64,000 bases of DNA. Source: Rhodobacteraceae bacterium Alg231-30. GTDB taxonomy: Bacteria; Pseudomonadota; Alphaproteobacteria; Rhodobacterales; Rhodobacteraceae. The notes under the pieces were generated by a model, which did not search any database, was not told the DNA's origin, and saw only the letters and a list, made by a program, of their open reading frames with translations. Position 1 is the first letter of the stretch. Each line of letters begins with the position of its first letter. This document shows, piece after piece, positions 17,080-42,762 of this stretch. A program made the position numbers and the translations under genes. The DNA lies in contig FREU01000005.1 of NCBI GenBank assembly GCA_900143615.1, positions 84 to 64,083 of the forward strand, written 5' to 3'.

Positions 17080-17134
17080 TGGTGCGGGTGAAGGGACTCG
17101 AACCCCCACGCCTCGCGGCGCCAGAACCTAAATC
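17080..17134 (-). repeat. attL: 55-bp 3' fragment of tRNA-Leu(UAG)
   Basis: These 55 bases are identical to 42678-42732, the anticodon-to-3' end part of the intact tRNA-Leu. The match breaks at the next base on the right. On the left a further TAAAATCAAT is shared with a 2-nt offset. The fragment lacks the 5' half, so it is not a functional tRNA. It is the standard scar left when an integrase inserts an element at the 3' end of a tRNA gene, and marks the left boundary of the island. Confidence 0.95.
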
Positions 17135-17584
17135 ACATGATAAAGACATGAAAACAATCACTTAGCTTCCTGAGCTCACAGGACAAAAAGGAAACAAAGA
17201 GTGAAAGTGTGAAACACTTATCCCAGCCCCCTTGGCTTGGATCGTGGATCGCAGTTCGGTTATCGTGACTTGGATCTATGGGCATATAGACCGAGCATGG
17301 GTATAGGCTTCGCCCGTCCTGCAACGTTATCCGCTCACTCGCGGAAACGTTCTGTCTTGTCCCTGATAAACCTGGATGCATCGATATCAATCATGACGGA
17401 AAGTTGGCAGGTTTGTGACTTGGCAGCTCAAAAACCAAAGGCACCCGAAACTGGCCTGTTCGACAACAATGGTTGCGGGAGCTTGATACCACCGAAAGTT
17501 AACCACCGGTCATCCGCCAGTATGGGCGGAGAGGAGACCTTCGCTGCGCTGGGTACGGATGGCCGCTTTTCAGCATTTGGCGCT
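17135..17584. other. Left inner end of the integrated element, no gene seen
   Basis: About 450 bp between attL and the AraC gene. At 17201-17215 it carries GTGAAAGTGTGAAAC, matching GTGAAAATGTGAAAC at 42590-42604 near the other end except for one base. These are candidate integrase arm-type sites. No coding frame with a convincing start or protein signature was found. Confidence 0.5.
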
Positions 17585-18598
17585 TTATGTCCCGCTCAGC
17601 TTGCGAAATCGTGTCGGGGAAATACCAAACCAACTGACAAATGTGCGCCGGAAACTGTTCACTTCGCTAAAGCCAAGGTTATAAGCGACCTCGGCGACAG
17701 ACATGTCAGTGTCGGACAGAAGTATCCGTGATCTTTCTGCCTGCTCTGTCACGCGTACTTCTTTAAAACTGGTATTCTCGGATTGGAGTTGGCGTTGCAG
17801 TTTTCGTACACCGACGCCCAAGGTGTCCGCGACAGTTTCGATGTCTGCGCTTCCCATGGCCAAATTTGCACGCAGAGCGTTTTCGACCACTTCTTTTGTG
17901 GAAGCTGGGGTTTGACGCGCACGCACATCACGAATGCCAGCCAATGTCATCGTCAGCCGCTCTTCACTTGAGCGTGGATTTGGGGTTTCAATATCTGACA
18001 GAGGGATGGCGATTGCGGCTGCGGATCCCCCCACCCGCACCTCGACATTGTAAATGTATTGCAAAGCCGTCTCAGTACCGCGGTGGGCTTCCGGTAGTTC
18101 GATCCAACTTGGCCGCCAGCGGCGTCCGCAGAATTCACGCACAACACTTTGCAAAACAAATGGCAGGTCCTGATCAATCAATTCTGCCCCTGCCGTTCCT
18201 CCGAGCATGTTGTCAAAACCAAGAACAAAGTGGTCACCTGCAACCCGATTACGAAGCACAGAGCCACGTTGAATTGAAGGGAGAATTTTCTCGGCGCGGC
18301 TCAAAGCCACATCCAATCGGGGGGCGCCGAGCACATATTCCGAATAAGAGCCAAAGGCGGCGTAATTGAAGTCTTCCGTGAGATAGGCACCAATGTGCTT
18401 TTCCGACAACTTCAAGCTGGCGGACTGAAGAAACCGTGCTTGCAACCGGTATGGAATGAATACGGGCGAACCTTCCAACACTGTCCGCGACAGGCCCGCT
18501 TCCTTCAAAGCAAATTCCGTCACACGCGGCGAAGCGATCCGGTCAAGCAGTTGAAGAGCGGGGCGAAATGCCAAGGTGCTGTGCAGAACGGTGTCCAT
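17585..18598 (-). CDS. AraC family transcriptional regulator (arabinose-binding-like N-domain)
   Basis: A 337-residue regulator. The N-terminal ~200 residues resemble the 'Arabinose_bd' domain seen in OruR/ArgR-like AraC proteins. The C-terminal ~100 residues hold the double HTH (IETVADTLGVGVRKLQRQL and MSVAEVAYNLGFSEVNSF). It is divergent from the esterase-led five-gene run at 18711 with a 112-bp gap, so it very likely controls that run. The inducer is unknown, possibly a lipid-like or sulfated compound handled by the esterase and sulfatase-like protein. Confidence 0.88.
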   Translation of the reverse strand: MDTVLHSTLAFRPALQLLDRIASPRVTEFALKEAGLSRTVLEGSPVFIPYRLQARFLQSASLKLSEKHIGAYLTEDFNYAAFGSYSEYVLGAPRLDVALSRAEKILPSIQRGSVLRNRVAGDHFVLGFDNMLGGTAGAELIDQDLPFVLQSVVREFCGRRWRPSWIELPEAHRGTETALQYIYNVEVRVGGSAAAIAIPLSDIETPNPRSSEERLTMTLAGIRDVRARQTPASTKEVVENALRANLAMGSADIETVADTLGVGVRKLQRQLQSENTSFKEVRVTEQAERSRILLSDTDMSVAEVAYNLGFSEVNSFRRTFVSWFGISPTRFRKLSGT

Positions 18599-18710
18599 AA
18601 GCGGCAGTTTGTCGTGAAATGATCACTTTTGGAAGTGGCGAAGATCAGTGGGGTAAATTAACTATTTCTCAACAAAGAAACACACAGCAACCGCAAGTTG
18701 GAGACCAAAG

Positions 18711-19784
18711 ATGAAACGCCGTTCTATCCTGAAAATTGCTCTCACCAGCGCCCTAATCGCCGCCCTTTCTGTGCCAGTGATCGCCACCGCAGAAACCGCA
18801 AAGCCAGTGATCCAAGGTCTGCCGATGGCGGAAAGAACTGTTCCGGTTCCAGTGGGTGTTTCGCCAGAACTGGCAGAACTCATCGGATCTCGACAGGTTG
18901 AGACACTCGGCGAAGTCCCTGCAACCACCGACGAGTGGCTTGCACTTCAGTCTGCATTTGACGCGGCGTCTATCGAAGGGGTTGAGCGTCTGCTTGAAAT
19001 GACTGGCGCGACGTTCACTACCGAAGATATTGCTGGGGTGACAACCTACCGCGTTACACCATCCGAAATTGCGCCACGGTGGGCCGATACAGTTTTTGTA
19101 CACGTTCACGGCGGAGCCTTTGTTTTTAACGGCGGAAAAGCGGCCATGACGGAAGCGATCTGGCTGGCAAACGGTCTGGGTGTCGAAGTCATTTCTGTTG
19201 ACTACCGCCGTCCGCCACTGCACGCATTTCCCGCAGCCACCGATGACGTGATCGCCGTATGGAATGAGGTGATTGAACAATATGACCCCAACCAAATCGC
19301 GATGTTTGGCACGTCTGCCGGGGGTAACCTAACTCTTTCCACCGTTTTGCAACTTCGCGACATGGGTGCGCCTTTGCCCGGTGCGATTATGGCCGGCACA
19401 CCTGCGGTTGATCTGGCGCATGCCTCTGACAGCTGGAAAACGATGGAAGGGCTTGACCCTTTGGGATCGCGTGATGGGGTGATCGAAGGCACATTCGAGG
19501 TTTATTCGGACGGTTTGGATCTTGAGGACCCACGCTTGTCCCCTGTCTATGGCGACCTGGACGGATTTCCGGCCACGGTCCTACTAACAGGCACGCGCGA
19601 CCTGCTTCTGAGTGACACGGTGCGCATGCACAGGGCGTTGCGTACGGCAGATGTAGAAGCTGACCTTCATGTTTATGACGGCCAGTCACACGGTGACTAC
19701 ATGTCCGGACTCTTTGTGGACGCGCCAGAAACGCAAGACGCTCTGCGTGAACTGAACACCTTCTTCGACCTGCATTTGGAGTAA
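18711..19784 (+). CDS. Secreted alpha/beta hydrolase (HSL-type esterase)
   Basis: A 357-residue enzyme with a signal peptide (MKRRSILKIALTSALIAAL, cleavage near AETAK). The oxyanion motif HGGAF, the nucleophile elbow GTSAGG, the acid in TGTRDLL and the histidine in QSHGDY are all in order. This is the hormone-sensitive-lipase fold, which cleaves short acyl esters. A Shine-Dalgarno GGAG precedes the ATG. It is the first gene of a run ending with an alkylsulfatase-like protein, so it may strip acyl groups from the same secreted or imported compound in the periplasm. Confidence 0.88.
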   Translation: MKRRSILKIALTSALIAALSVPVIATAETAKPVIQGLPMAERTVPVPVGVSPELAELIGSRQVETLGEVPATTDEWLALQSAFDAASIEGVERLLEMTGATFTTEDIAGVTTYRVTPSEIAPRWADTVFVHVHGGAFVFNGGKAAMTEAIWLANGLGVEVISVDYRRPPLHAFPAATDDVIAVWNEVIEQYDPNQIAMFGTSAGGNLTLSTVLQLRDMGAPLPGAIMAGTPAVDLAHASDSWKTMEGLDPLGSRDGVIEGTFEVYSDGLDLEDPRLSPVYGDLDGFPATVLLTGTRDLLLSDTVRMHRALRTADVEADLHVYDGQSHGDYMSGLFVDAPETQDALRELNTFFDLHLE

Positions 19785-19790
19785 ATACCG

Positions 19791-20636
19791 ATGGCTGTCC
19801 TCGCAAAATTTCCCCTCCTTTTCACCGAGCGTTTTGCGACTCAATCGGCACACGCGGAACCGGCGCAGGACTTTACCCGGATGCTTGAGGCCGCGACCTA
19901 TTCGGGACGCATTGAATCAAGCGTGCGCGCATTGGTTGCCAATTCGGTACGCGGTATCCTGACCGCCGTTCATTTCAAACCCGGTGACACGGTCGAAAAA
20001 GGTCAGGTTCTTTTTGAAATCGGTCCGCTGGCCTATGAACAAAAGCTGGCAGCAAACCGAGCCGTCGAAAACCAACGCTTGGTCGAATTGGGAAGCGCAG
20101 AAGCCGAAGCGCTTCGAGTGGCGGAGCTTGGTGCGCGGGCAGCTGTTTCCGATCAGGTGGCACAAGATGCCTCTGATCGGCTGGCTTTGGCCAAAGTGGC
20201 GCTTGAGGAAGCACAGGCAAACCGCGCGTTGGCCGAGCTCGAACTGGCCTCAACCAAAATTAGGGCGCCGATTTCCGGGAAAATCGGATTGTCCAACAAG
20301 TTTGTCGGCACTTATCTGGACACGGAAAATGGACAGGCGCTGGCGCAGATTGAGCATACCGATACGGTACGTGTTGTCTATGGAATGCCCTACAAGACGT
20401 TGATTGCACTCGATAGATCGTCGCCAGAAGGACTGGATGCCCTGATGCAAAGTTTTCAGGTAGATCTGTATTTACCTGGCAATGACCAACCTTTGGCAAA
20501 AGGTGGCCGTCTGCTGTTTTCCGAAAGCGCCTTGGTGGCCGACGAAACCTTGCGAGTCTGGGCAGAAATACCCAATTTCGAACGAGGCCTGATCCCCGGT
20601 TTGCACGTCGACGTCAAAGTAACCTTGCCAAACTGA
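19791..20636 (+). CDS. Periplasmic adaptor (membrane fusion protein) of an efflux pump
   Basis: A 281-residue adaptor, shorter than the usual 350-400. Biotinyl-lipoyl segments (VRGILTAVHFKPGDTVEKGQ and KIRAPISGKIGL) flank an alpha-hairpin rich in Ala/Glu (about residues 85-155), and a beta-barrel domain follows. The C-terminal membrane-proximal domain seems trimmed. The N-terminus has only a weak leader, ending AHAEP like a cleavage site. There is no RND pump gene nearby. The next gene is an MFS transporter, so it may act as an EmrA-like partner for that pump. Confidence 0.8.
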   Translation: MAVLAKFPLLFTERFATQSAHAEPAQDFTRMLEAATYSGRIESSVRALVANSVRGILTAVHFKPGDTVEKGQVLFEIGPLAYEQKLAANRAVENQRLVELGSAEAEALRVAELGARAAVSDQVAQDASDRLALAKVALEEAQANRALAELELASTKIRAPISGKIGLSNKFVGTYLDTENGQALAQIEHTDTVRVVYGMPYKTLIALDRSSPEGLDALMQSFQVDLYLPGNDQPLAKGGRLLFSESALVADETLRVWAEIPNFERGLIPGLHVDVKVTLPN

Positions 20637-20641
20637 TGCGA

Positions 20642-20662
20642 GGTCGCCCGCGAAGGGCGGCC
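20642..20662 (+). other. Hairpin between adaptor and MFS genes
   Basis: GGTCGCCC-GCGAA-GGGCGGCC forms an 8-bp stem with one T-G pair right after the adaptor stop. There is no T-run, so it is more likely an mRNA-stability or attenuation element than a full terminator. Confidence 0.4.
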
Positions 20663-20691
20663 TGCCAATAATTCTATGTAGGAGCTGTCTC

Positions 20692-21954
20692 ATGGCCCGT
20701 TTCAGCGAGCAAATAAACACATTGAAATACCTGTTCATCGCGGTTGCCGCGATTCAACTTGTCACTGCCGCCTCGGGCACCATCGTTGCGCTCTACTTTG
20801 CCGAAACCGGCGCCTCGCAGGAAATTGCCTCGTTGGCGCCCGCAGCATATTCCCTCGGGTTCCTCATTGGCTGTTTCTTTATTGCCAACTGGATTTCCAA
20901 CATTGGTCACATACGGGCCTTCTCGGCAGCCGCGGCCATTTGTACTGCCTCGGCCTTGCTGTTTTCGGTCATCGACCATGAGCAGACGCTTTTGTTTGTG
21001 CGCCTTATGACCGGCATCGCCACGGCGGGGTTGTTTGCAATCGGTGATGCATGGATCAGCGAGTCGGTCGACAAGTCTTCTCGGGGTCGGCTGCTGGCCG
21101 TCTTTGCAATTGTTCTCGGCATAATGTCTGTGCTCAGCCAGGTCATTGTGATCATCACACCCGACGATCTGAACCAAGCATTTGTGTTGATTTCCTTGCT
21201 TTATTGCTTGGCCATCGTGGTTATCGCTGCGGCGCCGACCACGCCACCGCAGGGAAAGGAAAAGGCCAATGTGCGTGTAAAGGCGCTCTTCAAAGATGCT
21301 CCAACCGCCGCATTTGGGGCGCTTGCAGTGGGCATGGTTTCTACTGTTTTTCTAAACGTCGTTCCCTACCGCGCAGCAATAATAGGCATCGATACCGTGG
21401 ACGTGGCCGTCGGCATAGCAACCATCTACGTGGGACGTATCCTGTTTCTGTATCCTTTAGGGCAGTTGTCCGATCGCATGGATCGGCGTCGGATCATTCT
21501 TGTGGCGTCTGCTGTTGCCACCGGTGCGCTTTTGACATTCGCCATTTTTGCAACCGGTGATGGCGTACGTCATGCAAACATGGTTGGCACACCCTTCTAC
21601 GCGGCAGTACTTGCGGGACTGGTCCTGCTTGGAGGCTCGATGCTGACCCTCTATTCGTTGCTGCTTGCGCATGCGATGGACCGAACCGTTCCAGTCTATG
21701 TTGCCTCCAGCGCTGTCACGATGCTTTTCGTTTTTACCATCGGCGGGATCATTGGGCCACTCCTGACGAGCGCGGCCTCCGCTGTCTTCGCCGATAGGGC
21801 CATGGGGTGGATGCTTGTCATCGTTATGGCCAGTTTCACTCTGCTGACAGCTGTTCGGATCAAACGTGTCGAACCGGCAGCAAAAGCAGAACAAACCACA
21901 TTTAAGGCCACCGAAACCACAAGCCTTGAATCGGCGCCTACGCAAAAACGCTAA
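20692..21954 (+). CDS. MFS transporter
   Basis: A 420-residue inner-membrane protein with 12 predicted spans. The loop-2/3-type motif appears as ISESVDKSSRGRLLAVFAI, and the matching second-half motif as GQLSDRMDRRRII. It resembles YcaD/UMF-like drug or sugar efflux MFS proteins. It is preceded by TAGGAG at good spacing and lies in a plus-strand run under the AraC regulator. Its cargo is unknown; pairing with the adaptor protein immediately upstream suggests export across both membranes. Confidence 0.87.
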   Translation: MARFSEQINTLKYLFIAVAAIQLVTAASGTIVALYFAETGASQEIASLAPAAYSLGFLIGCFFIANWISNIGHIRAFSAAAAICTASALLFSVIDHEQTLLFVRLMTGIATAGLFAIGDAWISESVDKSSRGRLLAVFAIVLGIMSVLSQVIVIITPDDLNQAFVLISLLYCLAIVVIAAAPTTPPQGKEKANVRVKALFKDAPTAAFGALAVGMVSTVFLNVVPYRAAIIGIDTVDVAVGIATIYVGRILFLYPLGQLSDRMDRRRIILVASAVATGALLTFAIFATGDGVRHANMVGTPFYAAVLAGLVLLGGSMLTLYSLLLAHAMDRTVPVYVASSAVTMLFVFTIGGIIGPLLTSAASAVFADRAMGWMLVIVMASFTLLTAVRIKRVEPAAKAEQTTFKATETTSLESAPTQKR

Positions 21955-21969
21955 GACTGGAGAACACTC

Positions 21970-23091
21970 ATGCTTTCTGCTTTCACAAATTTTGTGCGCA
22001 ACGAAAAGGCGACGCTTCTGATTTGGTTGGTCTTTGTCGCCCTGACGTTCGCCGGAGATCTCATCAAACCGACAGCCATGGGATCAACTATGTCATGGCT
22101 TTTGCTGGGCGGCATTTTCGGCGTTATGCTCGCCGCGGTGTTCCGTGTGGTGCATCACGCCGAATGTCTGGCAGTGATTTTCGGCGAGCCCTATGGCACG
22201 CTGATCCTGACTTTGTCGGTCATCGGCATCGAAGTCGCTCTCATCACCGCCGTTATGTTGACGGGGGACAACAACCCAACACTTGCGCGCGACACAATGT
22301 TCTCGGTTCTGATGATCGTGATGAACGGGTTGGTCGGCCTAAGCCTTTTGATTGGCGGTCTCCGCCACGGTTTGCAGGTATTTAATCTGAGTGGAGCAAA
22401 TGCCTATTTGGTTGTGCTTTTGCCGGTGGCCATCGTCAGCCTTGTGTTGCCAAGTTTCACGACCTCAGCCCCTGGTGGCGGTCTTTCTGCGCTACAAACT
22501 GTATTCATGATCTCAATGTCCGTCGTGCTCTATGGGATTTTCCTCGTATATCAGACAGCAGGTAAACCCGAAATTTTCCGCCAACCGGTCGAAGAGCTTC
22601 CCACAACAGCCGGATCTGACGCGCACCACCTTGAGACAAAAGGCATTGTATTTCATGTTCTTTGGCTGGTTCTGGCGATGCTGCCATTGGTCCTGATGTC
22701 TAAAAAGCTGGCTTTGTTTGTCGATTTCAAATTGTTGGAATTCGGTGCCCCGGTCGCGCTTGGTGGCTTCTTGGTCGCGGCTATGATCCTGACACCCGAA
22801 GCGCTTGCCGCCCTGGATGCTGCGCGGGCCAATAAGTTGCAACGGGCCGTGAACATTTGCCTGGGTTCGGCCTTGGCGACCATCGGTCTAACAGTGCCCG
22901 CTGTTCTGATCGCGGCGCATATGGTCGGGTTGCCGATCGAACTTGGGCTCGGCGGCGCGGAAATCGTACTCTTGGCTTTGACGCTCGGGATCAGCATCCT
23001 AACTTTTGTCGGGACACGTACAAACGCGCTGCAAGGCGTTGTGCATCTCGCCGCCTTCATGACCTACGTATTTTTGATTTTCGACAGCTAA
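21970..23091 (+). CDS. Calcium:proton antiporter family protein (ChaA-like)
   Basis: A 373-residue protein of the CaCA superfamily with about 11 membrane spans. Two alpha-repeat-like segments carry the conserved acidic residue: IGIEVALITAVMLTG in the first half and GGAEIVLLALTLGIS in the second. Family members exchange Ca2+, Na+ or K+ for H+. It starts 15 bp after the MFS gene with a GGAG site. Why a cation antiporter belongs with an esterase and a sulfatase-like enzyme is unclear; it may balance ions released by, or needed for, the secreted enzymes. Confidence 0.85.
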   Translation: MLSAFTNFVRNEKATLLIWLVFVALTFAGDLIKPTAMGSTMSWLLLGGIFGVMLAAVFRVVHHAECLAVIFGEPYGTLILTLSVIGIEVALITAVMLTGDNNPTLARDTMFSVLMIVMNGLVGLSLLIGGLRHGLQVFNLSGANAYLVVLLPVAIVSLVLPSFTTSAPGGGLSALQTVFMISMSVVLYGIFLVYQTAGKPEIFRQPVEELPTTAGSDAHHLETKGIVFHVLWLVLAMLPLVLMSKKLALFVDFKLLEFGAPVALGGFLVAAMILTPEALAALDAARANKLQRAVNICLGSALATIGLTVPAVLIAAHMVGLPIELGLGGAEIVLLALTLGISILTFVGTRTNALQGVVHLAAFMTYVFLIFDS

Positions 23092-23163
23092 AAGGCTGAA
23101 CAGTTCAAAGACCATTGCTGCGCTCGAGTTCAGATTCGGACGTCGCCCAAAAGGAAAAGAGAA

Positions 23164-25047
23164 ATGACCTCAAGACGTGAATTCCTGCAATCTTTGCCAT
23201 CCCTTGGCTTGATGATGGCCACCACAAGCCTCACCACATTGACAGCGGGTCATGCATTCGCAAAAAGTAAGGTCGCGCCGACTGATACCTCACATCACCG
23301 CCCCTTGTCCTATCGAGGGAGTTTCGACGACAACCGTGTTGAGTTCGCCAACGGCGGTATCGCAAATGGCGACTATGTGGACTGGCTGTCTGGCCAACCC
23401 AATGAGGCGACGATTTTTGAACCGCAAGAGGGCGTGTGGTCAATTGTCGGCTATATGCTTGGCAACTTTACCTTTGTGCAGAGCGAGACCGGGCTCATCG
23501 CTTTTGATGCCGGAAGCAACATCGGAATGGGCCGCGACATCCTCGCATTGCTGCGCACCCGCACAAAGTTGCCCATTGTGGCGATCATCTATTCCCACCA
23601 CCATTATACAGCAGGAGCGCGTGCCTATGCCGAAGATCGCGGTGCCGACCTGCCGATCTATGGACACCCAGATGTCGACAGGAATTTGTTACTGACGGCG
23701 GGTGAACTTGGCCCCATGCAGTTCCGCCGAGCCAGTCTTCAACTCGGCTTCTACTTGCCGCACGACGGGCCAGACGCTTACGTTGGCCCAGCAGAGCCAA
23801 CGTTTGACGATCCTGAACTTCAGGCCAATGGACATTTGCCAGTGACGCATCCAGTTTCCGACGGTGAAGAGGTGGTGATTGATGGTCGCCGCGTTATTTT
23901 CCATCACGCAGTTGGCGACACAAGGGACAGCCTGATCGTGCATTTCCCGGACCAAGACCTTGTCTTGCACAACACAAACGTCACGCCGATGGCCTTTTCC
24001 ATGTACACGCTGCGCGGAGATTTCTATCGTGCGCCAGATGACATGATCGCTTCCATTGACAAGATGCGCGCGATCCGGCCTGGCGTGCTGGTTGGATGCC
24101 ACGGCGTTCCGCTCTTCGGCGATGAGGCTCACGAGGTGATGACCGCACATCGCGATTACTACGCATTCATCTACAACCAATCCATTCGCGCTATCAATCA
24201 GGGTATGACACCTGAACAGATGGTAGAAACTATTCAGATCCCAGACCATCTTGCCGCGCACCCGTGGCTCTATCCGGGATATGTCGAACATGAGTACAAC
24301 ATCCGGGGCATATACCGGGGTATCGTGGGGTGGTTTGCCGAAGATACCGCTGACCTACACCCGCCAACAGACGCAGAACTTGGTAACGTGATGATCGAAG
24401 GGTTTGGTGGTGTGGATGCCGTTATTGAACGGGCGAGAGAGGTATTCGATCAAGGTAAATACAATCTCACGGCAAAACTCATGAGCTTTGTTATTGGCGC
24501 AGATCCGTCCAACGGCGAAGCCCGTCAACTGAAAGCCGACGCCTCGCGAGCCATGGGGCAAACCGCTCAGGCGGGCATTCAGGCGCGCAATTTCTTTCTC
24601 ACACACGCGCGGCATCTGGAAGGCAAACTGGATTGGACGCAACCTCCTGAAATCGGATTTTTCACCCTTCCTGGTGTTGATCTCGTGATGTCCACGCCGC
24701 CAGGCACATACCTCAAGCTGTTGCAGTTCAATGTGGATCCAGTGGGTAGCGCCAATGTTAACGCAGTCGCCAAATTCAATTTCACCGATTTGGGGCAATC
24801 CTGGGCCGTTCATGTCCGCCGTGGTGTTGTGGAAATCACCGAAACCGTTCCGGAAACAGTCGACGTGACCATCGAGTTTGACCGTAAGACCTGGGCACAA
24901 ATTGCGCTGCGGCAGATGTCATTGGCCGACGCCGTGCAAAGAGGACTGGCAGCGGTATCTGGCGATCAATCCGAAATGGCGGCGATCTTGGGATCATTTG
25001 ACAAGATTCCCACGGCTCAACCCGAACCAGAACAGATGAATGGGTAA
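23164..25047 (+). CDS. Alkylsulfatase-family metallo-beta-lactamase-fold protein with altered metal motif
   Basis: A 627-residue exported protein. A Tat-type leader (TSRREFLQ plus hydrophobic stretch ending GHAFAKS) is followed by an MBL domain (about 70-320), an alkylsulfatase dimerisation domain (about 350-490) and an SCP2-like C-terminal domain (about 510-620). This is the SdsA/BDS1 architecture. The usual HxHxDH zinc motif reads HHHYTA (residues 145-150), so the Asp and last His of site 2 are replaced. The YTLRG segment and a downstream GCHG His (H313) remain. It may be a mono-metal enzyme, a different hydrolase, or inactive. It is the last gene of the AraC-linked run. Confidence 0.8.
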   Translation: MTSRREFLQSLPSLGLMMATTSLTTLTAGHAFAKSKVAPTDTSHHRPLSYRGSFDDNRVEFANGGIANGDYVDWLSGQPNEATIFEPQEGVWSIVGYMLGNFTFVQSETGLIAFDAGSNIGMGRDILALLRTRTKLPIVAIIYSHHHYTAGARAYAEDRGADLPIYGHPDVDRNLLLTAGELGPMQFRRASLQLGFYLPHDGPDAYVGPAEPTFDDPELQANGHLPVTHPVSDGEEVVIDGRRVIFHHAVGDTRDSLIVHFPDQDLVLHNTNVTPMAFSMYTLRGDFYRAPDDMIASIDKMRAIRPGVLVGCHGVPLFGDEAHEVMTAHRDYYAFIYNQSIRAINQGMTPEQMVETIQIPDHLAAHPWLYPGYVEHEYNIRGIYRGIVGWFAEDTADLHPPTDAELGNVMIEGFGGVDAVIERAREVFDQGKYNLTAKLMSFVIGADPSNGEARQLKADASRAMGQTAQAGIQARNFFLTHARHLEGKLDWTQPPEIGFFTLPGVDLVMSTPPGTYLKLLQFNVDPVGSANVNAVAKFNFTDLGQSWAVHVRRGVVEITETVPETVDVTIEFDRKTWAQIALRQMSLADAVQRGLAAVSGDQSEMAAILGSFDKIPTAQPEPEQMNG

Positions 25048-25054
25048 GGTTCTA

Positions 25055-25201: not shown

Positions 25202-25206
25202 GTGAT

Positions 25207-31821: not shown

Positions 31822-31836
31822 GGCGGTTCCTGTCAA

Positions 31837-35704: not shown

Positions 35705-35856
35705 GTTGTTCACCGTTCAGAGTTGTTAGACGTCTGCGGGTGATCTTCGACAAGGACAGATGGGTGCCACGCATTAGATTAAATGTATTGGGCCAGATGC
35801 GCTTGGCGCAAATCTAATGATTTGCACAAGTCGTTCGAAAAAATTAGACAATATAC

Positions 35857-36741
35857 ATGCGCTTTCGTTCCTATGATGCTCTCAGGATTTTTGATGCCGT
35901 CGCCCGCAATCTGTCGATGACCAAGGCGGCGGACGAGGTGCATCAATCGAAAGGGTCGATCAGTTACCAGGTGGGCAAGCTTGAAGCCGAGCTCGGCTTT
36001 CGCCTGTTCGAGCGCGCGCACGCCAAACTGGAACTGACGGAGGAAGGGCGCAGGTTGTGGCATGTGTCCCAAACGGCCCTAAGCCAGATCGACCGTGAAA
36101 TCGAAGACCTGCGTGGCACCGCATCAGGCGCCGTGACCGTTGGCGCACTGACCTACTTCTCGTCACGCTGGCTGTCGCCAAGGCTCACACGGTTTTTCGA
36201 GGCCAATCCCCGTATCAGCCTGCGGATCGAACCGATCAACTCCGTGGAAATGTTGAGATCTGTCAGAGCGGACATGGCTATCCTCTGGGGAATTGGCGGC
36301 TGGAAGGACCATAAGAGCGAACTTCTTCTGTCCCTGCCTGCCGTTCCAACCGCCAACCGCGCAGTCGCAGAGCAGGTAAAGCGGCTTGGACTGGCCGAGG
36401 CGGTCAGGCAGCTTCCGCTCTTGGGGGACAGCTCCGGCGATGCCGGTTGGCGCGCCTGGCACAAAGCCGCCGGGCTGCCTTACGCGCCCAGCCGGTCCAG
36501 CCTCACGATCCCGGATTCAAACAGCCGCGTTCAGGCGGTGGTGGATGGCCAGGGGATCGCCCTTTGGGATGATCTGGTCGCGCCAGAAATTGGCGATGGA
36601 ACACTTGTCAGATTGTCCGATGTCAGAGTTGAAAACGCGGGTTACTTTGTCGTTTTCACGGATCGGCCGATGTCTCAGGGTGCGGAGGCATTCTTGGACT
36701 GGTTGCGGGCTGAAAACGATCGCAGCGATGGGCCGGTTTAG
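35857..36741 (+). CDS. LysR family transcriptional regulator (GcvA-like)
   Basis: A 294-residue LysR protein. The N-terminal winged HTH (LSMTKAADEVHQSKGSISYQ) and a co-inducer domain typical of the GcvA/TrpI group are seen. It is divergent from the GcvT-like gene with a 152-bp gap, which is where LysR regulators normally bind. The operon therefore seems to have two regulators: this LysR outside and the GlxA type inside. Confidence 0.92.
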   Translation: MRFRSYDALRIFDAVARNLSMTKAADEVHQSKGSISYQVGKLEAELGFRLFERAHAKLELTEEGRRLWHVSQTALSQIDREIEDLRGTASGAVTVGALTYFSSRWLSPRLTRFFEANPRISLRIEPINSVEMLRSVRADMAILWGIGGWKDHKSELLLSLPAVPTANRAVAEQVKRLGLAEAVRQLPLLGDSSGDAGWRAWHKAAGLPYAPSRSSLTIPDSNSRVQAVVDGQGIALWDDLVAPEIGDGTLVRLSDVRVENAGYFVVFTDRPMSQGAEAFLDWLRAENDRSDGPV

Positions 36742-37057
36742 AATCCCGCGGGTTCGCAGCGCTTGAACGGCGGGTTTGGCGAATCCTGCCGCGCCGCCGA
36801 ATTTCCCCCTCGCATGAGCGATAGCTTTCTGCGTCAGCAATAGCCGCGTTTGCACAAGTCCGGTCTGTCCGCTTAGCAGCCATGCGAAACTCTCTTCGTG
36901 GATGTCCGCTTTTTGCACCATGAAGCAATGGAGCCGAGTCCGCTTTGGGCTGCGAGCGGCCATTGTGCGTGATTTCCTTCGCGGTCCTCTTTGCGCTTTA
37001 TCCCCTTCCCTTCTTATGCGCTCTACATTGCAGCGCATTTGAACGGAAAGGTTTTCC
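36742..37057. other. Intergenic region, no gene seen
   Basis: About 316 bp between the LysR gene and a small RHH gene. It ends with GGAAAGGTTTTCC just before the ATG, a short palindrome overlapping the ribosome site. No conserved RNA or coding frame was recognised. Confidence 0.4.
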
Positions 37058-37258
37058 ATGCCGCGATACGTCACTCTCCGCCCGGATTTTTACGAACTGC
37101 TCCGCGAGGAGGCCGCTCTTCGCGACCGGACGATCCGGTCACAGGCTTTGCACTGGCTCGCGATCGGCAAGGCAATTGAGGCGTCGGGTATATACACCCA
37201 CGCGGACCTCACGGCCTTGCTTGAGCGTTTCGACGCGGAGACCCGGCCCGACGGGTAG
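37058..37258 (+). CDS. Small ParD-like / ribbon-helix-helix protein
   Basis: A 66-residue protein. The opening PRYVTLRPDFYELLREEAAL looks like an RHH strand followed by a helix, and RTIRSQALHWLAIGKAIE like the second helix of ParD-like antitoxin/repressor proteins. No toxin gene is adjacent on the same strand. It may be an orphan antitoxin or a regulator of the mobilization genes to its right. A strong terminator follows 30 bp after the stop. Confidence 0.6.
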   Translation: MPRYVTLRPDFYELLREEAALRDRTIRSQALHWLAIGKAIEASGIYTHADLTALLERFDAETRPDG

Positions 37259-37288
37259 CCACGGCGGTCACTACCTACCAACGCTAGA

Positions 37289-37315
37289 GGGCGCGGCATT
37301 TGCCGCGCCCTTTTT
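37289..37315 (+). terminator. Rho-independent terminator
   Basis: GGGCGCGGCA-TT-TGCCGCGCCC, a 10-bp perfect stem, is followed by five T. It ends the small RHH gene. Confidence 0.85.
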
Positions 37316-37344
37316 CTGTTCTCTTCGGTGTTGTGACTACCCGC

Positions 37345-37689
37345 TTACGCTTTGGATTTTGGCTCCGGCTTTTTCTTCACCTTCGACTCGTCTTTTGTCT
37401 TCGCTTTCGGCTTCCGTGCCTCGCGCAGTTTCTCGACCTCCTGATCGATGCCCTCTGGACGCAGTGGATGGCATTGGATCTTTTTGGCGTCGCCAACTTT
37501 GGCAACGGCCTCGAAGAGCACGAACACTTTGCGCAAGAGGTCTTCGTTGGCGGTTTTCAAGAACGCCTCCAGCGTGTTCGCGAACGCCTTTCGGATTTCT
37601 GCTTCGGTTGCGGCTTTCGACCTGCCAAGGTCCATGATGATATCCATCGCGCGCTGGTATTTTCGGTTTTCGGAATCGGAACGGTCCAT
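37345..37689 (-). CDS. Hypothetical protein, possible relaxase accessory factor
   Basis: A 114-residue protein with a mainly helical first half (EIRKAFANTLEAFLKTANEDLL) and a Lys/Pro-rich basic tail. A good Shine-Dalgarno (GGAGAATTCCT) precedes the ATG. It lies downstream of the relaxase gene on the same strand. A basic tail would suit DNA binding, and small accessory proteins often accompany relaxases. No family is recognised. Confidence 0.5.
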   Translation of the reverse strand: MDRSDSENRKYQRAMDIIMDLGRSKAATEAEIRKAFANTLEAFLKTANEDLLRKVFVLFEAVAKVGDAKKIQCHPLRPEGIDQEVEKLREARKPKAKTKDESKVKKKPEPKSKA

Positions 37690-37832
37690 AGGAATTCTCC
37701 TTTGTTGACCAAAATGGATGGGAGCAGTTGCTCCCGATTACTGCCGGTGGAAGCCTCAGACCGCCATCGACAACAACCAAGTAGGATCGTTGGTCTTCAG
37801 AGAGAAAAAAGTTTGGGAAGGGTTTGAATCCC

Positions 37833-39047
37833 TCAAACTTCCGGTCCATTTTTTTGGCCCGGCCGCGCCCATTTGTTGATCGCGCGCCTAAGCGTTGTGA
37901 TGCGCCCCGCCAGAGATTGCCGCGCTTTGACGATCTTCTTCCGTGCCGCCTCCGGCAACGCAGCCGCAGCTTCTACAATCGCGTCGTCCGCAGCTTTGAT
38001 CTCCTCAAGGTGCGATTGCACCTCGGCTCGGGCGTCCTTCCGCGCCTCCCTTTGGGCCGTGCTGCGCAAGGCCGCAAAGGCTTTTCCAAACAGACGCGCG
38101 GCGGCGGACCTGCCATCCGGCTGCGTCATCTCCGCCAACACCTTGGGATCTCCTTCAGCCACTGCCTTGGCGGTCTTCAGCACGGTCGCGGCTTTTTTCT
38201 CACGTTTGCACAAGTCGACCTCCCGCGCGGCCAGTTGCCGCTCTTTCTCTTCGCGCCATTCACGTGGGCTGACATGCTCCACCTGATCGGGAAGGCTGGC
38301 TGGTGCCTCATCCGTCTTCCCGTTTGCGGCCTGCTCTTTGCGATGCTGCTGAACCGCCTCTCGCAACGCCTGCTTACGCCGCTGACCGCGTTTCAATCCA
38401 AGCTCTGAGAACCACTCTCCAACACTGTCTTGGGCTTTCTCATAGTCCTTGATGAGGGGATGTTTAGAAGGCTGCAGCATCTTGCGCCCGTCTTTGGTCC
38501 GCGAGCGCGGCATGACAATCGCGTGGATATGATAGGTCGTCTCATCAAGATCAGCGCGGGCGTGGATCACGTCGTCACCGAAGCTGTCTTTGAGCCATGC
38601 CACTGCGGCGTTTTCGAAGCGATCCTCTCGGCTCTCTCCAAACAAATCGTCCATGTTGCTCTGGTCAAAGGCCGCAAACCAATCCTGATGCGCTGTGATG
38701 ATGACCTCACGCAAGGGCCCATGCCGCGTGCCGCGCCACGGGTCCTGTGAGCCCTCGACAACCCGCTTGGCAAGCTCCGCTTTGCGTCGCCGCTTCTTCA
38801 GCCCCTCAAGCTCCTTGGCGAAGTTCTCCACGCGCATATCTTCAATCTCTTTGAGCGCATGCTGCGCCCAGTCCTCGCCTCCGATCAGGCGACGGTTGAG
38901 GTTGGAACGTGTCTCATCCACGTGACCAAGATCACCGCCTTTCCGCGTGCGATGCTGCTCATAGCCGGCCAGATCCGCCGGAAAGAGGCCCTCCATCCGC
39001 AACACCACCGGATGTCGCATGTCGGCCGTCTTGATGTCTTCGCCCAT
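37833..39047 (-). CDS. MobV-type (Mob/Pre) relaxase
   Basis: A 404-residue protein with a Mob/Pre-like N-terminal domain. The early HxxR/N region appears as GHVDETRSNLNRRL (residues 41-54). The metal-binding motif appears as DLDETTYHIHAIVMP with D168, E169, H173 and H175, in place of the usual DExTPHxH. The C-terminal ~200 residues are charged and helical. Such enzymes nick oriT and lead the strand during conjugative mobilization. A relaxase inside a tRNA-inserted element suggests the island can be mobilized by a helper. No type IV secretion genes are present. Confidence 0.82.
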   Translation of the reverse strand: MGEDIKTADMRHPVVLRMEGLFPADLAGYEQHRTRKGGDLGHVDETRSNLNRRLIGGEDWAQHALKEIEDMRVENFAKELEGLKKRRRKAELAKRVVEGSQDPWRGTRHGPLREVIITAHQDWFAAFDQSNMDDLFGESREDRFENAAVAWLKDSFGDDVIHARADLDETTYHIHAIVMPRSRTKDGRKMLQPSKHPLIKDYEKAQDSVGEWFSELGLKRGQRRKQALREAVQQHRKEQAANGKTDEAPASLPDQVEHVSPREWREEKERQLAAREVDLCKREKKAATVLKTAKAVAEGDPKVLAEMTQPDGRSAAARLFGKAFAALRSTAQREARKDARAEVQSHLEEIKAADDAIVEAAAALPEAARKKIVKARQSLAGRITTLRRAINKWARPGQKNGPEV

Positions 39048-39556
39048 GGCGTCGCCCTCTCATCGTGAGGACGGGAAGTGGGTCCGCTGTCGCAAACTTG
39101 TGCATCACAGGTTTGAGGCGCCATCTTGATCAAAGCGCTGCTTGGCTGCGCAGGGAAAGTTACTCACTAATCAGCCCGCGCAGTTTCCCTTGGAAACCGC
39201 TCTGGCTGTCGTTCGTCGGGGCGCTGCCCCAAACCCCGTGCTGCCGCAGGCCACCTGCGCCGTGGGCGGCAAAGGAACGTTCGCCACGCTCCTTTGCACT
39301 CCATTGGCGTCTCCCGACAGGCTTAGGGGGTATTCCGCATACCGCCCCAAGACCCCGTGCTCTTGAGGAAGGTCCTCTCACCGACCTTCCCCAAACTCCT
39401 TCCAGCGCCGGCCTCGTTGAGGCTGTGAAGCGGTGTTTGCCGCCGGTGCAGGACGCCCGTTCTCAACTGCGCAGACTTTGTGTCGCGCATCTGAGAACGG
39501 GGCCCAGCCCCGGGTCAGAAGAAGACGTGACGGTTTTATCCGAGAAGGATACCTCG
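39048..39556. other. Non-coding region upstream of relaxase, candidate oriT
   Basis: About 0.5 kb between the divergent relaxase and MazF-like genes. It contains the inverted repeat GGAAGGTC / GACCTTCC (39367-39374 with 39383-39390) and an imperfect GGGGGTAT / ATACCGCCCC repeat just left of it. Relaxases of this class usually act at an oriT close to their own gene, so this is the best place to look. One long plus-strand frame crosses it, but the protein part before residue 165 looks random. Confidence 0.4.
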
Positions 39557-40099
39557 ATGACTGCTACACAACCCCAATTGGCGCACAGCGCGGCTTGGCA
39601 AGACGACCTGCAAACCGGCGACGTTGTCGCGTTTCGCTTTCCTCATGAGACTGACGGCTCAGTCGATCCCAAGGTTCGCCCTGCCCTTGTGCTCGATGTG
39701 GAAGAGACAGAGGCTGGCCGCTTCGCATCGCTTGCATACGGCACATCGAACCCGAGATCGCGCAAAGCCGATTACTGCGTCGACGTGCGTTCCGAGAAAG
39801 ACCGCGCGCCCGCGACGCTTCACCGGCCGACACGCTTCAATGCAGCACGTCGGGTTCTCGTGTCACTCGATCATCCAGGCTTTGAACTGAGCTCAGAAGT
39901 TGGCACGCCCGTGCTCGGACGCCTGTCTGGCCCAGCAAGTGATCGCATGCATGGGGTTCGCGCACGCATTCACGCAGAACGCGACATCCGGCGCGATCAC
40001 CTCGGCCGTCTGCGACGCAACGCCGGGAGCCTTCGTCCGGTAACTGTGGAACGGCGCTCCAAATCTCACAAAACCACCTGGGAAACGATCAATGTGTGA
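39557..40099 (+). CDS. PemK/MazF-like protein
   Basis: A 180-residue protein. Its core, GDVVAFRFPHETDG, VRPALVLDVE and ASLAYGTSNP, resembles the beta-barrel of PemK/MazF growth-inhibiting ribonucleases, with a basic C-terminal extension. The start at 39557 has GAAGGA seven bases upstream and begins just before the conserved domain; the longer frame back to 39065 is rejected. The next gene overlaps it by 8 bp. There is no typical MazE-like antitoxin beside it, so either the overlapping gene is an unusual partner or the protein serves another function. Confidence 0.55.
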   Translation: MTATQPQLAHSAAWQDDLQTGDVVAFRFPHETDGSVDPKVRPALVLDVEETEAGRFASLAYGTSNPRSRKADYCVDVRSEKDRAPATLHRPTRFNAARRVLVSLDHPGFELSSEVGTPVLGRLSGPASDRMHGVRARIHAERDIRRDHLGRLRRNAGSLRPVTVERRSKSHKTTWETINV

Positions 40100-40499
40100 G
40101 CCAAATCTCGACTACGACCCGATCCAAGCCACTGTTTTCCAAGCCCTTACACTGGCATCCAGCGCGCACAACGCGCTGGATCAACTTTCAGGCCTTTGGG
40201 CTGACCGACACGGTGCGAACGCTGCACGTAGACTTTCGGTGCAGATCGCACAGGAGAAGATCTTTTCGGCACGCGATCTCGATGCGCTGGAACAAGTTCT
40301 GCAGCCTTTGATGTCTGTCGCCGAAGGCGGTCCACGCGCCGATGGCGGCCCTCTCGATCAGATGCTGCGTCTAGGCGCTCAGGATCTTCACAACAAGATC
40401 CAGCCCCTATTCGAATTGCGTAGTGCGCTTTTGACCCTCGGTCGGCTGCGCCGGTCCGAGCAAATCGCACAGACCCTGCGCGGTGAAGACATGACCTAA
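40092..40499 (+). CDS. Hypothetical protein
   Basis: A 135-residue, largely helical and acidic protein that overlaps the MazF-like gene by 8 bp. It has no signal peptide, membrane span or recognised motif. Its overlap makes it a candidate functional partner of the MazF-like protein. Confidence 0.5.
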   Translation: MCEPNLDYDPIQATVFQALTLASSAHNALDQLSGLWADRHGANAARRLSVQIAQEKIFSARDLDALEQVLQPLMSVAEGGPRADGGPLDQMLRLGAQDLHNKIQPLFELRSALLTLGRLRRSEQIAQTLRGEDMT

Positions 40500-40610
40500 G
40501 CAAAGCGCGCGGAGGCGCAAAAGCGCCTCCAATCCTCTCCATTTCGCCAGCTCTTGCTGACCTTCTGCGTGAGGTCGGCAAGACGCTGGAACCAAATAGA
40601 AAGAGACACC

Positions 40611-41033
40611 ATGATCCCTGCCCCAACACATTTCCCAAACGACAGTTCACACCGCATCGCAGTGTTCTTGCAGCCCACAGAGCGTGACGATTTCGACCGG
40701 CTTGAAGAACTCACCGCAGACGGCCTGCAGGCCGCGCGCAAAGCCCTCGAAGACATCACAAATCTGCAAGTGCAATTTGACGGAGCGACCATCTCAAACC
40801 TCGCCGAACTTCGTCAGGCAGTAGAGAAGCGCCGCTTGCTAAACGATCGGTTTGTTGACGCCGCAAATGCTCTCACTACGCAGCTCGCCGACATGGAACA
40901 CCTGGAGGATTGCCCGGAGATTTTCGACCGGATTGCACAGGAACTTGGGCAGGCAATTGCGCTTTCAAATCGCGTGCGTGATTTGCTCTCGGCAGAGCGG
41001 GATGTCGGCTGGCATCGCGGAATTCGCGACTAA
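40611..41033 (+). CDS. Hypothetical protein
   Basis: A 140-residue helical, acidic protein (long helices such as LAELRQAVEKRRLLNDRFVD). The ATG at 40611 is preceded by a GAAAGAG stretch. It resembles in style the 135-residue protein upstream, and both sit in the stability/mobilization block. No family is recognised. Confidence 0.5.
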   Translation: MIPAPTHFPNDSSHRIAVFLQPTERDDFDRLEELTADGLQAARKALEDITNLQVQFDGATISNLAELRQAVEKRRLLNDRFVDAANALTTQLADMEHLEDCPEIFDRIAQELGQAIALSNRVRDLLSAERDVGWHRGIRD

Positions 41034-41192
41034 ATCCAGAATTTCTTTTCGTTAAAAATCAAAAGCCTGACGGGATAATTCGTCAGGTCTGCCATTTTAT
41101 GCCTCAAACTCGTTTGGCAAATTTTCAAAGCGTCTGAGGTCCTCAAAACAACAATCGGGAACCCCGCTTCCCCTCTGACGAGGACACCACTC

Positions 41193-41384
41193 ATGACGAC
41201 CAATACCACCCGCTCCGCCACCTCTGTAGAAGTTCCAACGGGCTTCTTGCAGACCGCCATATCGCATCGCGCACCACAGCAAACGCAAATCGTGCGTCTC
41301 AGCCACAACAGAAACGCCAATTTGTACAAATGCGCCGTCGCCTTCACCGCGATGGCGCCTGCCATCTTCAGCATGGGAGAGTAG
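41193..41384 (+). CDS. Small hypothetical protein
   Basis: A 63-residue frame with GAGGAC ahead of its ATG, ending 3 bp before the AlpA-like gene. It has no recognised motif; the last third is mildly hydrophobic (CAVAFTAMAPAIFSMG). It may be a leader frame for the alpA-int unit. Confidence 0.35.
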   Translation: MTTNTTRSATSVEVPTGFLQTAISHRAPQQTQIVRLSHNRNANLYKCAVAFTAMAPAIFSMGE

Positions 41385-41387: not shown

Positions 41388-41591
41388 ATGCCAGCACTTC
41401 AACCAATTTTTTCAACAGACCGCACCTCTGCCAAACTTCTGGACATGAAGCTCTTTCAGTTCCTCGAATTGGTCGAGGCTGGGGCACTCCCCAAACCGGT
41501 GAAAATAGGCGGCCAACTAGTAAGGTGGTCCGTAAAGGAACTTGAAGCCATCAAGACCGGGGAAATCATGGAGGCTGAATTCGAATGGTGA
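41388..41591 (+). CDS. AlpA-like excisionase/DNA-binding protein
   Basis: A 67-residue protein. The segment SAKLLDMKLFQFLELVEAG followed by LPKPVKIGGQLVRWSVKEL is the winged-HTH pattern of AlpA/excisionase proteins. It overlaps the integrase start by 7 bp, so the two are co-translated. Such factors steer the integrase toward excision or regulate its gene. Confidence 0.75.
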   Translation: MPALQPIFSTDRTSAKLLDMKLFQFLELVEAGALPKPVKIGGQLVRWSVKELEAIKTGEIMEAEFEW

Positions 41592-42586
41592 AACAAATGG
41601 ACAAACCTTTTGTGGTGCCAGTTGTTCGCAAAGGTCGGACGTATTGGTATTTCCGGCGTGCAGGAAAATATGTGCGACTACCAGACGATCCAGACAGTCA
41701 GGCGTTCGACACCGCCTACTGGTCTATTCGATCCGGCAAAGCGAACATAACCCAAACAACTTTCGACGCATTGATCACCAGTTACTATCAAACACCGCGC
41801 TTCAAAGGCCTAAAGGCAAGCACCAAAGCTGAATACCGCCGCACGTTAGAGCTGATCCGAGAAAAGAATGCCCGAAAGGATTTCACGAAACTACGCCGTC
41901 GGGACGTAATTGCCGCACGAGACAACTATGCGGACACCTGGCGCAAAGCCAACGCCATGGTAGAGCAGCTATCGATCTTAGCAAATCACGCTATTGAATT
42001 GGAGTGGATCACTTCTAATCCAGCTTCAGGCGTAGAAAAGCTAAAAGGTGGAGAATACGAGCCATGGCCGGAGGCCAAGTTAGAAGCCTTTGAGACCTAT
42101 TGCACGGGAAACGATCTGTCGACAGCCCTGACAGCTTACCACCTATGCATAGGCACGGGCCAACGGATCGGCGACGTTGTCAAAATGGAATGGGAACATT
42201 TTGACGGCGAATACGTGGAAGTTGTGCAAGAAAAGACAGGCACTCGTGTCTGGATCTATTGCCCTTCCCGCCTTCGCACGTTTCTGAACAACCTGCCCCG
42301 CCGAGGCAGATATGTCATCGCCAAAAACCTAACACAGCCTGTGTCCAAGCGCAGGGTGCAGTTTTTGGTGCAAGAGGTTAGGGAGGCGATAGCGGCTAAG
42401 AAGTTTGTGATCCATGGATGGCGCTACAACGCGGCGCGTGAACTTGCAGAGGCTGGTTGTAGTGACGTTGAAATCCAGTCTGTCACCGGCCACAAAACAT
42501 TGGCAATGGTCCAGAAATATCGCGCGCAAGCCAATCAGAAGCGACTCAGCAAGTCTGCGCAGTCCCGAAGAACAGAACAAAAATGA
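41585..42586 (+). CDS. Tyrosine-type site-specific integrase of the island
   Basis: A 333-residue integrase with an N-terminal basic segment, a SAM-like core-binding domain (~55-150) and a catalytic domain. The key residues are R194 (GTGQRIGD), H277-x-x-R280 (HGWR), H303 (TGHKTLAM) and the nucleophile Y312. It lies 91 bp inside the tRNA-Leu gene, the usual place for an integrase that uses the tRNA 3' end. With the identical 55-bp repeat at the other end, it is the enzyme that inserted the element. Confidence 0.93.
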   Translation: MVKQMDKPFVVPVVRKGRTYWYFRRAGKYVRLPDDPDSQAFDTAYWSIRSGKANITQTTFDALITSYYQTPRFKGLKASTKAEYRRTLELIREKNARKDFTKLRRRDVIAARDNYADTWRKANAMVEQLSILANHAIELEWITSNPASGVEKLKGGEYEPWPEAKLEAFETYCTGNDLSTALTAYHLCIGTGQRIGDVVKMEWEHFDGEYVEVVQEKTGTRVWIYCPSRLRTFLNNLPRRGRYVIAKNLTQPVSKRRVQFLVQEVREAIAAKKFVIHGWRYNAARELAEAGCSDVEIQSVTGHKTLAMVQKYRAQANQKRLSKSAQSRRTEQK

Positions 42587-42589
42587 AAC

Positions 42590-42616
42590 GTGAAAATGTG
42601 AAACTAAGTGTGAAAC
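42590..42616 (+). repeat. Candidate integrase arm-type sites (right end)
   Basis: GTGAAAATGTGAAAC (42590-42604) followed by GTGTGAAAC (42608-42616) gives three tandem GTGAAA-type units just after the integrase stop. The left end of the island has GTGAAAGTGTGAAAC (17201-17215), about the same distance inside its att copy and in the same direction. Confidence 0.45.
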
Positions 42617-42677
42617 TCTGATGTCGGAAGGTTCGCAACCGCTTACGCAAACAATCGTTTATTGCGTAAAATCAATA

Positions 42678-42762
42678 TGGTGCGGGTGAAGGGACTCGAA
42701 CCCCCACGCCTCGCGGCGCCAGAACCTAAATCTGGTGCGTCTACCAATTCCGCCACACCCGC
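42678..42762 (-). tRNA. tRNA-Leu (anticodon UAG), attR of the island
   Basis: An 85-nt tRNA with encoded CCA. The acceptor stem GCGGGTG pairs with CACCCGC, the anticodon loop is TTTAGGT (anticodon TAG), and there is a long class II variable arm and the T-arm GGTTCGAGTCC. It stays intact because the inserted element restored the 3' half; positions 42678-42732 equal the 55-bp copy at 17080-17134. Confidence 0.97.

Follow-up and report, generated by a model that had tools for sequence, protein, structure and literature searches.

How did unrelated sets of genes come to stand side by side in one genomic island? The question is raised by a 25.6-kb element at a tRNA-Leu(UAG) gene of Rhodobacteraceae bacterium Alg231-30, a relative of Shimia, which lies in a window of 64,000 nucleotides (nt), the whole stretch of DNA analyzed here (contig FREU01000005.1, positions 84 to 64,083; coordinates count from the first letter of the window). 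Comparison with related genomes supports an integrated, probably mobilizable element, termed integrative mobilizable element (IME). Beyond this, we put at about 0.6 the probability that its interior consists of cassettes in array, exchanged by a 210-amino-acid (aa) tyrosine recombinase within the spacer of a short dispersed site, the island collecting operons and carrying them between species. As an IME the element is a further case of a known class, whereas the cassette system, if real, is possibly a new kind, and the separate movement of the cargo blocks is the more interesting part.

The element is bounded by an exact direct repeat of 56 bp, the sole direct-repeat family of at least 25 nt within 15-45 kb of the window. 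The single tRNA that ARAGORN finds in the window is a tRNA-Leu at 42678-42762 on the minus strand, therefore the repeat represents the tRNA 3′ end. An identical repeat and an intact tRNA on the right had already been claimed in a first-pass annotation of this DNA, and both are found. The features that bear on integration and mobilization are listed here, where G, C and L numbers are our handles for genomes, contigs and loci; we take G017 as Shimia sp. Alg240-R146 and G015 as Shimia haliotis.

17079-17134: attL, the 56-bp copy of the tRNA-Leu 3′ end (exact repeat; conserved in G017)
17135-17529: left backbone segment (96% identical to the G017 island, 89% to G017:C2:41775-42226)
37833-39047, minus strand: MobV-type relaxase, 404 aa (Mob_Pre 45.5 bits, cut-off 25.5; 79-80% identity in G015 and G016)
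41388-41588, plus strand: AlpA-like open reading frame (ORF), 67 aa (Phage_AlpA 16.6 bits, below the cut-off of 21)
41585-42586, plus strand: tyrosine integrase of the island, tRNA-Leu(UAG) family (Pfam Phage_integrase 53.7 bits, cut-off 27.1)
42677-42732: attR, the second copy of the repeat (exact)
42678-42762, minus strand: tRNA-Leu(UAG), intact target gene (ARAGORN; anticodon read from the G017 equivalent)

The annotation had placed an integrase with an AlpA-like factor just inside the right end; the integrase is borne out by Pfam, and the AlpA-like ORF is present with a Phage_AlpA match that stays below the cut-off. Its MobV-type relaxase is likewise recovered, and the Pfam scans, which covered 20 ORFs of the island, gave no family belonging to a conjugation apparatus, in agreement with the claimed lack of a transfer apparatus. 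This combination places the element in the canonical IME category (own relaxase, no type IV secretion system). According to passages of a 2017 review (PMC5704250), no IME of that category was then described in Proteobacteria, which agrees with the annotation's remark that a MobV relaxase on such an island is less usual.

A sister copy with different cargo lies in G017, where attL, integrase, mobilization module and attR are kept at the same tRNA and other genes fill the cargo slots. Its backbone matches the window at 17078-17529 (96%, divergent further left, which backs the left boundary), 25174-26008 (89%), 29144-29257 (97%), 36943-37153 (99%), 37077-41200 (85%), and from 41124 to beyond the tRNA (98%). 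The pieces are spread over three contigs with terminal overlaps of 77 bp; we take these overlaps as contig adjacency, which would give a G017 island of about 14.3 kb. The 9.1 kb to the left of the G017 attL correspond to G008 at 92% (L052:1-9077 versus L020:9975-19047), leading in G008 straight into an intact tRNA-Leu, which on this alignment is the empty site for the G017 copy. Among 18 loci of integrase relatives, a sample that includes fragments and several stretches that end early, 14 adjoin tRNA-Leu(UAG) and 10 have an AlpA-like ORF upstream of the integrase; a relaxase was detected in none of the 18 stretches, several of them short. It is because of this shared backbone, the G008 empty site and the tRNA-Leu(UAG)-linked integrase relatives that the IME assignment of the first-pass annotation is supported. 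The check it had proposed, a relative in which 17079 runs directly into the right flank, gave no empty site for the window's own copy: the left flank (1-17070) is unmatched in 20 relative tRNA loci, three of which end at a contig edge. The 3′ side of tRNA-Leu has differing neighbors in most relatives.

What fills the space between these ends? The annotation counted three cargo blocks correctly; it overlooked the intact second tyrosine recombinase (25210-25839) and the mosaic interior with separately moving blocks. Modules of about 0.1 to 7.7 kb are found intact in unrelated surroundings, and far more of their ends than chance predicts fall at a dispersed site of the form CAATGNCCGCT-10 bp-AGCGGNCATTG. 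The S type of this site has the core TTTGGGC, and the M type has GCGCAG with a trailing CAAAGTC, that is, the same arms around another spacer (CAATGGCAGCT-ATGCGCAGAT-AGCGACCTTTG, then CAAAGTC). The consensus of 46 de-duplicated breakpoint windows, with a few tRNA ends among them, is CAA.G.CCGCTTTGGGCTG..AGCGG.CATT.G, which comprises two 11-bp inverted arms and a 10-bp spacer. Along the island, units and sites are arranged as follows.

17524-25185, plus strand: cassette A, 7.66 kb (99.3% over 7662 columns at G017:C3 from 110013, different flanks)
25174-26008, minus strand: recombinase unit with ends GCTCTGGGCC and GCTTTGCAAAGT (occurs at several loci)
25210-25839, minus strand: 210-aa tyrosine recombinase, candidate cassette recombinase (Pfam Phage_integrase 57.1 bits, cut-off 27.1)
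25971-26002, plus strand: M-type site GAATGGCAGCT-AAGCGCAGAT-AGCGGGCTTTG (17/20 arm positions; 132 bp upstream of the recombinase start)
26009-29144, minus strand: cassette B with a hybrid histidine kinase at 26144-28864 (other genes in this slot of the G017 island)
29144-29257, plus strand: mini-unit p2 with ends GCTTTGGGCTG and CTTTGCAAAGTC and an M-type site at 29219-29250 inside (97% in the G017 island, 96% at G017:C3:129.5 kb, neighbors differ)
29308-36872, minus strand: cassette C, 7.57 kb (99.987% over 7565 bp at G017:C1:660855-668419)
36934-36965, plus strand: S-type site CCGAGTCCGCT-TTGGGCTGCG-AGCGGCCATTG, left end of the mobilization module (17/20 arm positions; breakpoint versus G017)

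The joined G017 island is without cassettes A and C, and both are nearly identical elsewhere in that genome; therefore operon-sized blocks that stand together here are found apart, and away from the tRNA, in another species. The G017:C1 flanks of cassette C are adjacent in 14 of 19 relatives fetched by one flank, the aligned flanks lying 75 to 661 bp apart in the 12 relatives inspected. The 661-bp gap is that of G008 (L134, near 3430-4092), where the place of the G017 cassette C holds site-like remains and, judged by eye, a piece of a mobilization-module ORF. The empty site of cassette A was sought through the G017:C3 left flank, and of the 25 genomes searched six, apart from G017 itself, had a match, each of them partial. 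On a smaller scale, G008 carries one 541-bp unit at two loci with 99.8% identity. At seven island junctions both sides have 6-15 bp in common, namely GGGCGG, GCTCTGGGCCGT, GCTTTGGGCTGG, CTTTGCAAAGTC, TTAGAGCCCA, TGTCCGC and CTTTGGGCTGCGAGC, which is short for RecA-type recombination.

The clustering of ends at the site was counted in three sets. A breakpoint was defined as the sharp end of a segment of 80 bp or more with an identity of 93% or higher, and was scored if the core expression occurred within 16 bp. In the exploratory set, from which tRNA ends and redundant loci were removed (154 of 187 loci kept), 40 of 77 breakpoints lay at a core with 6.1 expected. This set had helped to define the core expression, therefore the expression was fixed and then tested on new stretches. 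The hold-out set comprised 60 of these, most chosen for the M pattern and masked where they overlapped older loci, and gave 25 of 54 breakpoints at a core with 4.1 expected; at other identity limits the figures were 15/35 (2.9 expected) and 38/108 (8.0 expected). In other genera, 19 of 31 breakpoints were at a core with 2.2 expected (27 of 50 with 3.4 expected at looser limits), in 16 stretches chosen for the S pattern; all 31 fall in G086, where it is mostly repeated units of about 90-170 bp, and not large cassettes, that end at them. The printed probabilities of 2e-14 and 8e-15 are read as "strong" only, since the ends are not independent and the loci not random. Several of the ends that lack a core resemble insertion sequences or contig edges. 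In loci fetched on grounds other than the site, k-mer enrichment brought out nothing of use.

The site itself is in excess over controls. When the arms were scanned with spacers of 4-18 bp over 1.08 Mb on both strands, at least 16 of 20 positions matched in 86 cases for a 10-bp spacer, 26 for a 16-bp spacer and 0-14 for the others, an excess at 10 bp that is partly by construction, many loci having been fetched with the site pattern. The pattern GCGCAGATNGCGACCTTTGCAAAG has 77 matches in 14 of 25 genus genomes and its reversed control none; family-wide, the S pattern has 82 matches in 41 of 120 genomes and its reversed control four. G086, a genome fetched with the S pattern, holds 14 M-type sites too, and 36 of its 41 listed sites lie outside ORFs of at least 150 aa, with one to five such ORFs between clustered sites. 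At five places in G086 (L285, L286, L289, L297), S and M sites form inverted pairs 152-153 bp apart, which suggests a composite site. Two other descriptions of the site were discarded: an attC-like box pairing (GCC[CG][AG]AAG ... C[TC]T[TCA]GGGC) was too rare, with six unique matches in 1.20 Mb, and a long dyad symmetry around TTTGCAAA scored 18.6 for own halves versus 18.9 for mismatched halves, of 77. In the open-licence literature the site strings matched no paper, and other searches, judged by titles and the starts of abstracts in capped lists, turned up no publication on the site among the entries listed.

Where within the site would the strands be exchanged? The left flanks of the 541-bp unit in G008 read GCT-CT and GCT-AA and are followed by a common GGGC, and the rebuilt pre-insertion site at one of these loci is a good S site (16/20); this points to exchange inside the spacer. 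S-type ends fall repeatedly within the same few spacer bases, and the core has the same orientation at both ends of cassette A and of the 541-bp unit. The cassettes would circulate as circles; among the rebuilt junctions of such circles, those of the 541-bp unit and the recombinase unit score 16, and that of a 3.9-kb unit 15 in one reading, above the random 95% level of 14/20.

The best candidate for the enzyme is the 210-aa protein. The listed ORF at 25207-26034 is the recombinase with an upstream extension, the protein itself running from 25839 to 25210, and 118 of 120 homologues among the matches listed have the same length of 210 aa. The family is very large (at least 8000 candidates were scored, all significant). 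We read the R, HxxR, H and Y of tyrosine recombinases as present, with little before the catalytic domain; simple tyrosine recombinases are described in passages of a survey as a core-binding plus a catalytic domain (PMC8138268). Against the IntI profile the protein scores 19.3 bits (cut-off 265), and among proteins of solved structure XerA is the nearest in sequence (E 0.0003). Of the 13 Shimia copies with at least 84% identity, nine have an M-type site 88-132 bp upstream. The recombinase unit has ends of the same kind as the cassettes; G000:C9 and the G017 island share one version of it at 99.4% identity. Close copies, one of them partial, occur in nine of 25 genus genomes; at least four M sites were found in seven of these nine and in one of the 16 without (P 0.0005), five of the 16 having more distant copies. 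At the family level an S site occurs in 19 of 38 genomes with the recombinase versus 22 of 82 without.

We propose that the island integrase inserts the element at the tRNA-Leu(UAG) 3′ end, and that the MobV-type relaxase, if it works, would transfer the island via the conjugation machinery of another element. The recombinase at 25210-25839 would exchange cassettes by site-specific recombination within the spacer, and the island would thus gather metabolic operons in an integron-like manner and carry them between species.

Several points weigh against this proposal. About half of the breakpoints are without a core, most loci were fetched for holding the site, and the breakpoints are not independent. 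A 5.5-kb and a 2.25-kb unit begin at an M site and finish at an S site, the cores are opposed at the 3.9-kb unit common to G007 and G010, and the orientation in cassette C is ambiguous; the rebuilt circle junctions of cassettes A and C reach the random level (14) without exceeding it, and that of the 5.5-kb unit falls below it (13). As to the enzyme, the family association gives P 0.012, 0.15 and 0.004 for at least one, two and three S sites, G004 has the recombinase and no M site, no site lies near the recombinase of G086, the genome richest in S sites, and outside Shimia the M-type site was not seen at its usual upstream place. An AlphaFold model of the recombinase on a shallow alignment (pLDDT 43.8) was not used and is counted here too. 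The link between recombinase and site is thus a moderate, statistical one, association rather than proof, and our confidence was slightly lowered because one unit has opposed cores and the recombinase of G086 lacks a nearby site.

Part of this list would be expected of an ordinary mosaic IME, in which modules were swapped by homologous or microhomology recombination at dispersed intergenic repeats and the second recombinase is a passenger. The sites are indeed dispersed and mostly intergenic, they are present in 22 of the 82 genomes without a recombinase match, and the core-less breakpoints and the oppositely oriented cores also fit. Against it stand the island junctions with only 6-15 bp in common, the recurrence of S-type ends at the same few spacer bases, and the intact 0.5-7.7-kb units at unrelated loci with unrelated flanks, and we consider such a history unlikely, although it is the rival we take most seriously. 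The sharp-ended mini-units, about 90-170 bp in size, that G086 and G017 carry at several places, and again the inverted cores of the 3.9-kb unit, could reflect a repeat family of the repetitive extragenic palindrome (REP) or miniature inverted-repeat transposable element (MITE) kind, spread by another transposase, with cargo caught between two ends in the fashion of a composite transposon. Such an origin appears improbable to us: by eye there is no target duplication at cassette C in G017:C1, and cassette A and the 541-bp unit each have co-directional cores at their two ends.

We give hardly any credence to a canonical integron integrase elsewhere in the genome that acts on the sites as attC. 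The core TTTGGGC resembles the integron box GTTRRRY; against this, none of the 25 genus genomes has a protein above the IntI cut-off, a count without positive control since the 14 control genomes gave none either, and two sites folded as single strands do no better than shuffles (z -0.77 and -0.84). Cassette exchange by the 210-aa recombinase is the reading we prefer. More tentatively, and with somewhat more doubt than belief, we suggest that Roseobacters possess an undescribed cassette-capture system apart from integrons, in which a minimal tyrosine recombinase swaps operons, the largest of at least 7.7 kb, between dispersed sites of 32 bp (10-bp spacers, at least two types) and moves itself as a cassette, with mobilizable tRNA islands as interspecies shuttles. 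If true, it would explain near-identical multi-gene catabolic blocks at unrelated places in different species, and with both site and candidate enzyme named, the idea is directly testable in the laboratory.

The remaining genes of the island are those of the cassettes and of the mobilization module.

17585-18598, minus strand: AraC regulator of cassette A (Pfam)
18711-19784, 19791-20636 and 20692-21954, plus strand: HSL-type esterase, HlyD and MFS proteins of cassette A (Pfam)
21970-23091 and 23164-25047, plus strand: Na/Ca exchanger and alkylsulfatase-like protein of cassette A (Pfam)
29525-30382, 30373-31836 and 31837-33441, minus strand: enoyl-CoA hydratase, aldehyde dehydrogenase and acyl-CoA ligase of cassette C
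33429-34496 and 34493-35713, minus strand: GbdR-like AraC regulator and DmdA/GcvT-like protein of cassette C
35857-36741, plus strand: LysR regulator of cassette C
37058-37255, plus strand: ParD-like antitoxin ORF, 66 aa (ParD_like 37 bits, cut-off 23)
39557-41033, plus strand: mobilization-module ORFs 39557-40099, 40092-40499 and 40611-41033 (conserved beside the relaxase in G015 and G016)

The GcvT-like protein was not accepted as a dimethylsulfoniopropionate demethylase (175 bits, cut-off 410). Part of cassette C (33503-36783; GcvT-like, AraC, LysR) is about 86% identical to four plasmids of Phaeobacter (P. inhibens among them) and Tritonibacter; in a plasmid search with 25.1-42.8 kb no record covers 80%. 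Of ten proteins run through PADLOC, nine had no match and the histidine kinase had two weak ones (19.8 and 16.7 bits). None of the three mobilization-module ORFs has a Pfam family above cut-off; that at 39557-40099 has a PemK-like match below it, and together with the ParD-like ORF it may perhaps be part of a stability system. In G015 and G016 the same module adjoins not a tyrosine integrase but a serine recombinase of 550 aa, with Resolvase, Recombinase and zinc-ribbon domains (L049:13919-15571 and L050:12202-13854, the latter copy next to tRNA-Met), therefore mobilization and integration modules recombine freely.

Outside the island, the left flank at 2.0-14.5 kb, or part of it, has counterparts elsewhere in the genomes G016, G017 and G018. 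This is a catabolic block (2001-14529) with GMC oxidoreductase, TRAP transporter, histidinol-dehydrogenase-like protein, alcohol dehydrogenase and FMN-dependent dehydrogenase, at 76-78% identity in the three genomes and ending near 14.52 kb in G016 and G018. In G017 the attL end is present a second time (G017:C2:41775-42226; L059:5776-6231), on the same contig as the first copy and distant from it. In G013 (L034), copies of the tRNA-Leu 3′ end at 824-878 and 2197-2251 are 1.37 kb apart, which we read as an insertion of very small size or what is left of one. Window positions 1-341 hold the 5′ part of a 16S rRNA gene on the minus strand, at the window edge; the contig starts 83 bp earlier, therefore the assembly breaks inside an rRNA operon.

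How does this arrangement compare with known systems? The core of the site is TTRGGC-like, as in integrons. Modules of the pdif (Xer) type are movable and bounded by a short site with inverted 11-bp arms and a 6-bp spacer. The site described here likewise has inverted 11-bp arms, but its spacer is 10 bp and a dedicated recombinase travels with the units; among the spacers of 4-18 bp scanned, the clear excess at 10 bp and none at 6 bp departs from the 11-6-11 arrangement. The Pseudomonas integron-like elements and the recombinase-in-trio elements, as treated in passages of two papers (PMC4542609, PMC8138268), also have Xer-like tyrosine recombinases on mobile DNA; those are three full-size recombinases together, whereas here a single 210-aa protein is found. 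Canonical MobV IMEs such as Tn4451, Tn5520, ATE-1 and IMESag-rpsI, as described in passages of the IME review (PMC5704250), have in common with our element the integrase, the relaxase and the lack of a conjugation apparatus, and differ in that ours has an alphaproteobacterial host, a tRNA target, and an interior in which movable blocks are lined up together with a second recombinase.

With integrons (IntI, attI, attC), as portrayed in passages of the IntegronFinder 2.0 paper (PMC9024848), the proposed system has in common a tyrosine recombinase gene near a site and exchangeable units bounded by a common site, the orientation of which is the same at both ends in some units only. It differs in a 210-aa recombinase far below the IntI cut-off, in short inverted arms with a 10-bp spacer and chance-level folding (two sites), in units of up to six genes, and in sites scattered genome-wide. 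The same passages report six complete integrons in Alphaproteobacteria, in Sphingobium and Agrobacterium, so that integrons are very rare in this class, and call the reasons for it unclear (PMC9024848). A separate cassette system in an abundant marine group would, if true, be one answer to that rarity, and in Roseobacters it would fill the role that integrons have in gammaproteobacteria.

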